A stretch of DNA of 64,000 nucleotides from Lentilactobacillus sp. SPB1-3 (GTDB lineage: Bacteria; Bacillota; Bacilli; Lactobacillales; Lactobacillaceae), in NCBI RefSeq assembly GCF_026913205.2, contig NZ_CP168151.1:558001-622000 (forward strand), given 5' to 3'. Made by a program: the position numbers and the translations under genes. The notes under the pieces were generated by a model that was not told the origin of the DNA, searched no databases, and was given only the letters and a program-made list of their open reading frames with translations. Below, piece after piece: positions 52,849-56,032 of the stretch. Position 1 is the stretch's first letter. The number at the start of each line of letters is the position of its first letter.

Positions 52849-53913
52849 TTAGGATAAACTGTGTTTTGATACGATACTGGTTGTATTGGGTAAATCAATC
52901 GTAAAAATGCTTCCTGAATGCAGCTTACTTGTGACCGATAGTCGACCTCCTAGTTGATTAGTTAAATCCTGGGCAATATACAATCCTAATCCATGACCAC
53001 CTGTCTGCATATTTCTTGACTGTTCAACTCTGTATAGTCGGTTGAATATCTTTGACTGTTCGTCTTGCGGTATTCCAATGCCATGATCACTGATTTTAAT
53101 TTTGATTCGATTGTCACTTAGTTCACTGCTGATAGTGAGTGATGTACCAGCGTCTGAATATTTTAGAGCGTTGTTAATTAGATTGAAGAGGATTCTCGAC
53201 AATTTGCCAATGTCTGTATTGATTGAGTTAGCTTTGGGATCGATATTGATGTCAACGTCTCGATGCTCCCGGTCGATTTGAACTTGAAAGGCTGACAAAA
53301 TTTTAATCAGTAATTTGTCTAGAGATATTTGCTCATTTTTAATTTCGTAATGTTGCTCTTCAAACTTACTAGACCGAATGTAATCTAACTCTTCTACTAA
53401 CTGGTTCAATCTGGTTGTCTGGTTATCAATTGTTTCAAAATATTTTTGGTATTGATCTGGGGTTATTACACCATCTAAGATAGCCTCAATCGTGGCTTTA
53501 ATTGATGAAATAGGGGTTTTGATATCATGAGAAAGTTGAGCGATCATCATATCTTTTTCCTGTTCACTGTCTTTTAATTTAGAAAATGTTTGGTCTAAAC
53601 TAATAGTCATTTGGTTAAAATCATTCGCTAAATCACGAAATTCTTGTGGACTATTCACACCTTTAATTTGAGTAAACTTATTTTCAGCAATATTTTGACT
53701 AAGGACTTTAAATTTGTCTAATGACTTAAACGGTTTGTGAAGTAACAAAAGTGCAACTATGATTCCGATTAGACTAGCAACGGTGGTGATGATAATTATC
53801 CAAGTGGCGCTCTGATTATCGAGCACCATCTTATTGACGGCCCAAACGACTGCTGAGATTGTGGTAATTACTGAGATCACGTAACTTAGAATTACTAAAT
53901 ATCTTAATTTCAT
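52849..53913 (-). CDS. sensor histidine kinase with minimal extracellular loop
   Basis: This 354-residue kinase has two membrane helices (about residues 5-27 and 37-59) with only some nine residues between them outside. A HAMP-like linker follows, then the phosphoacceptor H129 in QLSHDIKTPISS and the ATPase domain (NLINNALKYSD, DHGIGIP, GHGLGLYIA). Such short-loop kinases usually sense events in the membrane or through a partner. The ATG overlaps the regulator stop (ATGA), so both are cotranslated. Confidence 0.9.
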   Translation of the reverse strand: MKLRYLVILSYVISVITTISAVVWAVNKMVLDNQSATWIIIITTVASLIGIIVALLLLHKPFKSLDKFKVLSQNIAENKFTQIKGVNSPQEFRDLANDFNQMTISLDQTFSKLKDSEQEKDMMIAQLSHDIKTPISSIKATIEAILDGVITPDQYQKYFETIDNQTTRLNQLVEELDYIRSSKFEEQHYEIKNEQISLDKLLIKILSAFQVQIDREHRDVDINIDPKANSINTDIGKLSRILFNLINNALKYSDAGTSLTISSELSDNRIKIKISDHGIGIPQDEQSKIFNRLYRVEQSRNMQTGGHGLGLYIAQDLTNQLGGRLSVTSKLHSGSIFTIDLPNTTSIVSKHSLS

Positions 53914-54611
53914 GTTTCTTGCCCCTCCAGTTTGTAGCCTACACTCCAAACAGTTTTTAAAATGGGGGTATTATCCGTTCCGTTTTTAGACAATTCATTT
54001 CTAATATTATGGATGTGTACGTTTAAAGTATTAGCGTCGTCAACAAAATCTTCTTGCCAGACCATGTCATATAACTCAGATTTTGAGTAAACTCGCTCCG
54101 GATTTTGTGCTAAAATCCACAAAATTTCAAATTCTTTGGCAGTTAATGTGAGGTGCTTACCAGCAATTTTTACATCTCTAGTCTGGTGGTTAATGGTTAA
54201 GTCACCGACTATGATGTCCTCATCAATTGAGTTGTGTTGACTTCCGTTAACCCGCTTTAAAATATTAGTAATCCTGAGAACTAACTCTCTTGGACTAAAT
54301 GGCTTACTGATGAAGTCATCAGCACCTAAAGTAAGCGAATAAATTTTATCCTGGTCAGATGTCTTAGCTGTAAAAAACAAAAATGGTTGATCTGGATTTT
54401 TATCAATAATTTCGTTGATCATATCGTAACCATCCATTTCTGGCATCATTATGTCAGTGGCAATTAAGTCAGCGGAATGATTTTTCAGCCACTCTAACGC
54501 CTCAATTCCGTTGGCAGAGATGTGGACCACATAACCAGCTCGTTCAAGGTACTTACCATTGATATCTGTAATTGATGGTTCGTCATCAACTAGTAAAATA
54601 GTTTTGCTCAT
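53910..54611 (-). CDS. OmpR/PhoB family response regulator
   Basis: This 233-residue regulator has the receiver domain with acidic pocket VDDEP and phosphoacceptor D53 in ATDIMMPEMDG, and switch residues FFTAKTSDQ and ISKPFSPREL. The C-terminal winged helix includes LTAKEFEILWILAQNP, DANTLNVHIHNIRNEL and VWSVGYKLEG. I chose the ATG at 54611, seven bases after GGAGGT. It is cotranscribed with the kinase and lies directly downstream of the WxL-like gene. The 11-bp phased half-sites upstream of that gene suit this DNA-binding class. Confidence 0.93.
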   Translation of the reverse strand: MSKTILLVDDEPSITDINGKYLERAGYVVHISANGIEALEWLKNHSADLIATDIMMPEMDGYDMINEIIDKNPDQPFLFFTAKTSDQDKIYSLTLGADDFISKPFSPRELVLRITNILKRVNGSQHNSIDEDIIVGDLTINHQTRDVKIAGKHLTLTAKEFEILWILAQNPERVYSKSELYDMVWQEDFVDDANTLNVHIHNIRNELSKNGTDNTPILKTVWSVGYKLEGQET

Positions 54612-54623
54612 TAATTTTACCTC

Positions 54624-54670
54624 CAAAAAAGCGAAGCTATACTTATGTTTTAAGTATAGCCTCGCTTTCT
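54624..54670 (-). terminator. terminator between the WxL-like gene and the response regulator
   Basis: On the minus strand AAAGCGAGGCTATACTTA pairs with TAAGTATAGCTTCGCTTT, one mismatch, and ends in six T residues. The response regulator's GGAGG begins right after the T-run, leaving no room for a promoter between them. The two-component genes may therefore depend on read-through. Confidence 0.8.
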
Positions 54671-54688
54671 CTAAAATACATAAAATTT

Positions 54689-55609: not shown

Positions 55610-56032
55610 AATAAATTCCTCCTAAAATGTAATTGCTTTCTTAACTACGCTAAGAGAATAACACCCGAAGTTTAACTAATTATTTTCTAATTCTTAACTA
55701 TCTCTTAAATGATACTTAGAATTTTTTGAGGCTTACTTTAATGCTAATAAATCTCACCACATACTAAAAGCAGTCAATAGCGAGCAACAACATAATTGAT
55801 TATCGATCTCCTGTAATTATCTGTTAAATTTGAAGCCAAAAATTTGATGTTTGTTATGACATACTCTTCATGAAATGGTTCGGGTAGGGGCAGGAAAATT
55901 TAATATGAAAAAATACCTTTTCAAAATTTCTTGTTAGTATCTAAATCGATTAATAATAAAAAAATCCTGTGATAACACTAAATTGTGTTGTCACAGGATT
56001 TTTTATTTAACATTATTTGTTAGTTACATTTA
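55610..56032. promoter_or_regulatory. upstream region of the WxL-like gene with 11-bp phased half-sites
   Basis: Half-sites start at 55672 (TTAACTA), 55683 (TTTTCTA), 55694 (TTAACTA), 55705 (TTAAATG) and 55716 (TTAGAAT), each exactly 11 bases apart. A further TTAACTA lies at 55641. This spacing is typical of PhoB/PhoP-type regulators. The array ends just before a possible -10 on the minus strand (TGTTAT, complement of 55658-55663) that lacks a good -35. From about 55740 to 55930 I see nothing definite. Confidence 0.5.
55961..56004. terminator. terminator of the GyrI-like/Tag-like operon
   Basis: AAAATCCTGTGATAACAC pairs with GTGTTGTCACAGGATTTT, one mismatch, around TAAATT, with T-runs on both strands. 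It ends leftward transcription from the GyrI-like gene. Confidence 0.9.

Follow-up and report, generated by a model that had tools for sequence, protein, structure and literature searches.

A conserved 11-bp-phased half-site array upstream of a WxL-regulator-kinase cassette in Lentilactobacillus, a probable operator of the adjacent OmpR/PhoB-class regulator

The window, a stretch of 64,000 nucleotides from Lentilactobacillus sp. SPB1-3, carries an array of NTTAAG half-sites in an 11-bp register upstream of a gene for a WxL-type surface protein, the motif reading in this form on the minus strand, which is the strand of the WxL gene. On comparative grounds we consider it probable that this stretch serves a self-regulating WxL-regulator-kinase cassette as its operator, to which the OmpR/PhoB-class response regulator encoded beside the WxL gene binds, probably activating transcription. 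As such it would most likely be a well-preserved operator of an already known, ordinary kind. Its interest lies in predicting where the regulator of an uncharacterised two-component system, present in two families of lactic-acid bacteria, would bind, and in linking a WxL-type surface protein to that system. We found no account of this WxL-regulator-kinase cassette in listings of the open-licence literature on WxL, two-component regulators and TTAAG; PMC13413889 (in excerpt) concerns a different WxL operon and motif.

The array, its promoter and the cassette genes

Read in gene sense, the array comprises TTTAAG-N5-GTTAAG-N16-GTTAAA, followed after 10 bp by an extended -10, TGT-TATTCT (Table 1). 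With all in-register slots written out, the string is TCTAAG-N5-TTTAAG-N5-GTTAAG-N5-GAAAAT-N5-GTTAAA-N10-TATTCT, the TG lying one base 5' of TATTCT. The first-pass annotation had listed five phased 7-mers on the plus strand, namely TTAACTA at 55672, TTTTCTA at 55683, TTAACTA at 55694, TTAAATG at 55705 and TTAGAAT at 55716. Their places and exact 11-bp spacing hold, as does the TTAA common to three of them (55672, 55694 and 55705), but the strong half-sites number three, not five. The slots at 55683 and 55716 are weakly conserved relative to the other three, so that the array is best described as three conserved half-sites that keep the register but pass over one slot. The skipped slot, GAAAAT, is probably not a specific site because only a single position of it is invariant. 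The most gene-proximal half-site, GTTAAA, occupies the -35 position and lacks the final G of NTTAAG. A further TTAACTA copy at 55641, where the annotated stretch began, drops out of the series, since it lies 31 bp from 55672 and is out of register; the three Lentilactobacillus genomes compared below agree at six of its seven positions, its TTAA core reading TCAA in G001 and TAAA in G010. The bases just 3' of the -10 (55641-55654; gene sense CTTAGCGTAGT) are mostly conserved, and the array does not account for this stretch.

Table 1. Coordinates of the array, the predicted promoter element and the cassette genes in the window
Feature	Position	Strand	Description
Weak in-register upstream slot TCTAAG	55715..55720	-	3/6 positions invariant
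Half-site 1 TTTAAG	55704..55709	-	5/6 positions invariant, three genomes
Half-site 2 GTTAAG	55693..55698	-	11 bp from half-site 1; 6/6 invariant
Skipped in-register slot GAAAAT	55682..55687	-	1/6 invariant
Half-site 3 GTTAAA	55671..55676	-	33 bp from half-site 1; 6/6 invariant
Extended -10 TGT-TATTCT	55655..55663	-	Predicted; 8/9 positions invariant, three genomes
WxL-type surface protein, 306 aa	54689..55609	-	Pfam WxL PF13731, 27.8 bits (cut-off 25)
Hairpin and T-run in the WxL-regulator gap	54631..54672 (ends approximate)	-	-28.3 kcal/mol, z -7.5
OmpR/PhoB-class response regulator	53910..54611	-	Response_reg and Trans_reg_C
Sensor histidine kinase	52849..53913	-	HisKA and HATPase_c

As had been annotated, the candidate -10 TATTCT (55655-55660) was without a -35 partner in a promoter scan. 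Two promoters proposed by the scan were rejected: TTAAGA-18-AATAAT, inside the array, relies on the non-conserved slot, and TTAACA-17-GATAAT, at 55827-55799, is not part of the conserved block. Within the window, identity at lag 11 over 55641-55722 was 0.479, whereas shuffles averaged 0.303. Lag 11 ranked first, with P=0.0014 when considered alone and P=0.029 when any lag from 2 to 33 was allowed, and 0.67 % of shuffled versions of the 423-bp intergenic region contained the pair TTAAG-N6-TTAAG. The window by itself gives the 11-bp register moderate support, and the comparison with relatives carries more weight.

The minus-strand gene order is WxL, response regulator, histidine kinase. That an OmpR-class regulator is encoded just downstream of the WxL gene is confirmed by its receiver and winged-helix (Trans_reg_C) domains, which scored 101.1 and 86.1 bits, above their cut-offs. 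Every NCBIfam model among the 25 matches listed for each of the regulator and kinase fell far below its cut-off; the best-scoring included VanR-type, PhoB and CreB for the regulator and PnpS, WalK and VanS for the kinase, with the VanR/PhoB equivalogs reaching 201 of 460, 197 of 350 and 167 of 296 bits. The Trp-x-Leu motifs that mark WxL-domain proteins are missing from the three Lentilactobacillus WxL proteins, which contain no Trp, and no NCBIfam model matched the window's WxL protein at 1e-3. Where the Lentilactobacillus proteins have YRL/YKL and FTL, their enterococcal homologs read WSL and WTL or WTP. The hairpin between the WxL and regulator genes is a probable partial terminator. It was absent from the list of a simple terminator scan, and similar sequences are found in this region in G001 and G010 (a likeness of unfolded sequence). 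The hairpin sits directly 5' of the regulator's ribosome-binding site.

Conservation in Lentilactobacillus and recurrence in enterococci

The WxL gene was identified in three of 24 genomes of the genus, its own included, and these three (G000, the source of the window; G001; and G010) were compared. The half-site hexamers were invariant at 17 of 18 positions, as opposed to 17 of 31 in the spacers, skipped slot and gap (P=0.003 for the three genomes, with the hexamer/spacer split chosen after seeing the data). Invariant positions per 30-bp bin ranged from 4 to 8 between -330 and -121 and from 19 to 22 between -120 and -1, the initially transcribed stretch being conserved too (22/30 in its bin). 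By eye, the ORFs next to the cassette are not the same in the three genomes, so the conserved block may stop, on its outer side, where the cassette stops; the contrast between hexamers and spacers within the block is the better evidence.

A search with the regulator at E 1e-72 returned three of 105 Enterococcaceae genomes (E. malodoratus, G722 and G734). These enterococci carry the same three genes, but with WxL divergent from regulator-kinase; their regulators are 48-50 % identical to that of the window, and the E. malodoratus WxL protein is 41 % identical to its counterpart. The shared intergenic region contains NTTAAG-N16-NTTAAG-N5-NTTAAG in an 11-bp register upstream of the regulator gene, with 79-80 bp between the end of the last pair and the regulator start. 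The TTAAG of every site is invariant and no position of the skipped slot is (0/6); the 60 bp preceding the array are invariant at 15/60 positions and the whole region at 167/320. The TTAAG-N6-TTAAG pair, defined on Lentilactobacillus, is present in every enterococcal region and in 0.45-0.8 % of each region's shuffles. The three-site array, for which patterns were chosen after seeing the data, appeared in at most 0.01 % of shuffles; because the three species are related, these shuffle results are not independent. Each region additionally has a looser pair pointing to WxL, [GC]TTA[TG]G-N5-NTTAAG, a pattern defined post hoc. The WxL start in E. malodoratus (L013 / L151) is without the ribosome site and ATG seen in G722 and G734, a TTG-started frame being the only one listed.

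The proposed 11-bp phase is thus conserved in related species, recurring in two bacterial families (Lentilactobacillus and the enterococci), and none of five intact cassettes (G000, G010, E. malodoratus, G722 and G734) has kept the two-component genes and lost the repeats. In G001, the regulator gene is broken and the repeats are retained. On these comparisons, the register spanning 55672-55722 is genuine, and its 11-bp phase is conserved.

More widely, WxL was found in three of 397 genomes of the family at E 1e-20 and 10 of 395 genomes of the order at E 1e-10, its own included in both. At the nine other order-level loci, a text-pattern search detected no regulator-like ORF within ~1.5 kb either side; upstream of these more distant WxL genes there was no 11-bp TTAA pair and one 33-bp pair. 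The regulator was found in none of 10 genomes of the genus of G662 at E 1e-75.

The binding regulator and the sign of control

The binder, the sign of its action, its contact with polymerase, read-through and the signal are what we infer in the following mechanism. The membrane kinase would phosphorylate the adjacent OmpR/PhoB-class regulator, which would then bind NTTAAG half-sites lying one or two helical turns (11 or 22 bp) from each other and thus facing the same side of the DNA. A gene-proximal half-site at the -35 place, 10 bp before an extended -10 that lacks a -35, suggests that the bound regulator helps RNA polymerase to start. WxL would be transcribed first and the hairpin would pass part of this transcription on to the regulator gene, so that the outcome would be much surface protein and slightly more regulator, a positive feedback. 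Hydropathy analysis of the window's kinase revealed two hydrophobic stretches about 8-10 residues apart; intramembrane-sensing kinases are built in this way, which makes an envelope signal likely.

The main rival reading assigns the array to a CiaR-like regulator whose gene maps elsewhere (G000:C1:1837703), with the adjacent regulator controlling something else or sharing the sites. It owes this place to the reported site of CiaR, NTTAAG-N5-TTTAAG, for which the published search placed the -10 ten bp further on (PMC3091779, in excerpt); the array half-site is near-identical to that motif. We regard this reading as rather unlikely. A CiaR-like gene, with a recognition helix (VIEVYMSNLRKKI) resembling that of CiaR (VVEVYVSKVRKKL), was present in all six genomes searched, and the enterococcal copies have TTTAAG-N5-TTTAGG upstream in 3/3; in contrast, an 11-bp TTAA pair lies upstream of 0/3 of the Lentilactobacillus CiaR-like genes. 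The CiaR-like label comes from the helix only, and among the 25 NCBIfam matches listed no curated cut-off was reached and no model was named CiaR. The -10-proximal pair, GAAAAT-N5-GTTAAA, lacks the G on which CiaR is said to depend, and NTTAAG-N5-TTTAAG does not occur directly 10 bp before the -10; the good pair (TTTAAG-N5-GTTAAG) sits 22 bp further up than the proximal pair. In addition, the array co-occurs with the adjacent regulator in the five intact cassettes. The adjacent regulator itself is not CiaR, having a helix of TLNVHIHNIRNEL as opposed to VVEVYVSKVRKKL and 32 % identity to the CiaR-like paralog. A second upstream 11-bp pair, CTTAAC or alike with CTTAAG, was observed at all three enterococcal CiaR-like loci (L160, L161 and L162).

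A CiaR-like binder would explain G001, where ~52 matching codons of the regulator gene are left (L119), the end of another gene adjoins and no kinase ORF lies beside the remnant at that locus. Compared with G000, the remnant displays 7 non-synonymous and 16 synonymous changes and WxL 51 and 121; compared with G010, the remnant region displays 13 and 22 changes in G001 and 10 and 23 in G000. Loss of the regulator from G001 seems recent, as the codon changes of the remnant are in proportion to those of WxL (slightly less against G010). Overall, we prefer the adjacent regulator over the CiaR-like one as binder, though not strongly. It is also conceivable, if unlikely, that the cassette is a portable self-regulated surface module and that the host CiaR-like system converges on near-identical half-sites and keeps WxL running in G001; if true, two two-component systems would converge on one operator.

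Repression by the adjacent regulator, whose proximal half-site would block RNA polymerase at -35, appears more doubtful still. The half-site does overlap the -35 position, and OmpR/PhoB-class proteins are able to repress from such sites, but an extended -10 without a -35 suggests a need for help, and CiaR-activated promoters share the spacing (PMC3091779, in excerpt). A chance period in AT-rich DNA, conserved through shared cassette ancestry only, could draw on the modest significance of the register across lags in the window and on a block edge that may be a cassette edge, yet is very improbable given that hexamers are retained where spacers drift and that the array recurs in enterococci and upstream of distant relatives.

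The array has parallels in characterized systems. The half-site, the 11-bp period and the 10 bp to the -10 are like those of CiaRH of streptococci and BAS0540 of Bacillus (PMC3091779 and PMC4938410, in excerpt). Unlike CiaRH operators, the array has three spaced half-sites with one slot skipped and a promoter-proximal half-site ending in A, and the adjacent regulator has a different recognition helix. Operators of ArcA, of the OmpR/PhoB family, are built from between two and five direct repeats at a spacing of 11 or 22 bp (PMC3798270, in excerpt), and the array likewise consists of several direct repeats one or two turns apart; its sequence differs, however, as does its fixed distance from the -10, and ArcA mostly represses.

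Half-site spacing upstream of related regulators

The regulator search brought 80 loci. Of the 77 usable loci (three with <200 bp upstream were left out), 12 had TTAAG-N6-TTAAG in the 450 bp preceding the regulator gene, a density of 0.35 per kb upstream compared to 0.014 per kb elsewhere in the same, mostly coding, loci. When the shorter TTAA core, chosen after seeing the data, was considered upstream of 75 regulators (the same three, L012 of Lentilactobacillus sp. Marseille-Q4993 and L013 of E. malodoratus left out), pairs peaked at lag 11, with 21 against 3.1±1.7 in shuffles, and lesser peaks fell at lags 22-23 and 34. A lag-11 pair was found in 19/75 regulator segments and 20/441 control segments, the controls being 250 bp long and taken from the same loci, upstream of other, mechanically called ORFs of at least 150 aa. 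Regulator segments are AT-richer than controls (62 vs 56 %) and denser in TTAA, and the 441 controls too peak at lag 11 (22 pairs) among the 14 lags listed; among segments with at least two TTAA, the counts were 19/49 for regulators and 20/181 for controls (P=2e-5).

Among regulators whose recognition helix is V-H-I/V, the window's type, 20 of 60 had the pair, as opposed to none of 16 others, a grouping likewise chosen after seeing the data. This count used 76 loci, with the three short ones and L073 out (with L073, which has a VHI helix and no pair, it becomes 20/61), and the association has P=0.004 without L012 and L013; both the 20 and the 12 loci with the exact pair include L013. Many clostridial pairs are CTTAA, with the orientation reversed. 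The first-pass annotation had read the 11-bp geometry as that of PhoB/PhoP-class regulators, and the domains of the adjacent regulator, the recurrence in two families and the equal spacing before relatives' genes support an OmpR/PhoB-class geometry.

In the window's own genome, TTAAG-N6-TTAAG occurs at seven places, the window's included, compared to 18 for a reversed control, and a looser three-site pattern with 3 mismatches at 786 compared to 1152. As there was no genome-wide excess, no regulon was drawn; the contexts of the six other TTAAG-N6-TTAAG places were read by eye. A perfect intergenic TTTAAG-N5-TTTAAG lies close before a possible short ORF (L094, C1:397353-397368). None of six regulator paralogs of the same genome had TTAA pairs at lag 11, 22 or 33 within the 260 bp before the gene, and two paralogs in G001 (L104 and L107) had a 22-bp pair. 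A further set of 30 regulator loci, overlapping the own-genome and G001 paralogs, had an 11-bp TTAA pair in four cases, namely the three enterococcal CiaR-like genes and L167.

Among the 19 pair-bearing relatives, 11 had a third TTAA 33-34 bp after the first, which is the window's layout (0, 11, 33). TTAA at 0, 11 and 33-34 bp may perhaps be a general autoregulation layout; its presence before relatives of the regulator suggests that autoregulation is frequent and could aid target prediction. The loci with this spacing, many of which have CTTAA as their sequence, were L021, L036, L042, L043, L047, L048, L054, L058, L059, L062 and L077, in some of which a -10-like hexamer was seen by eye to follow.
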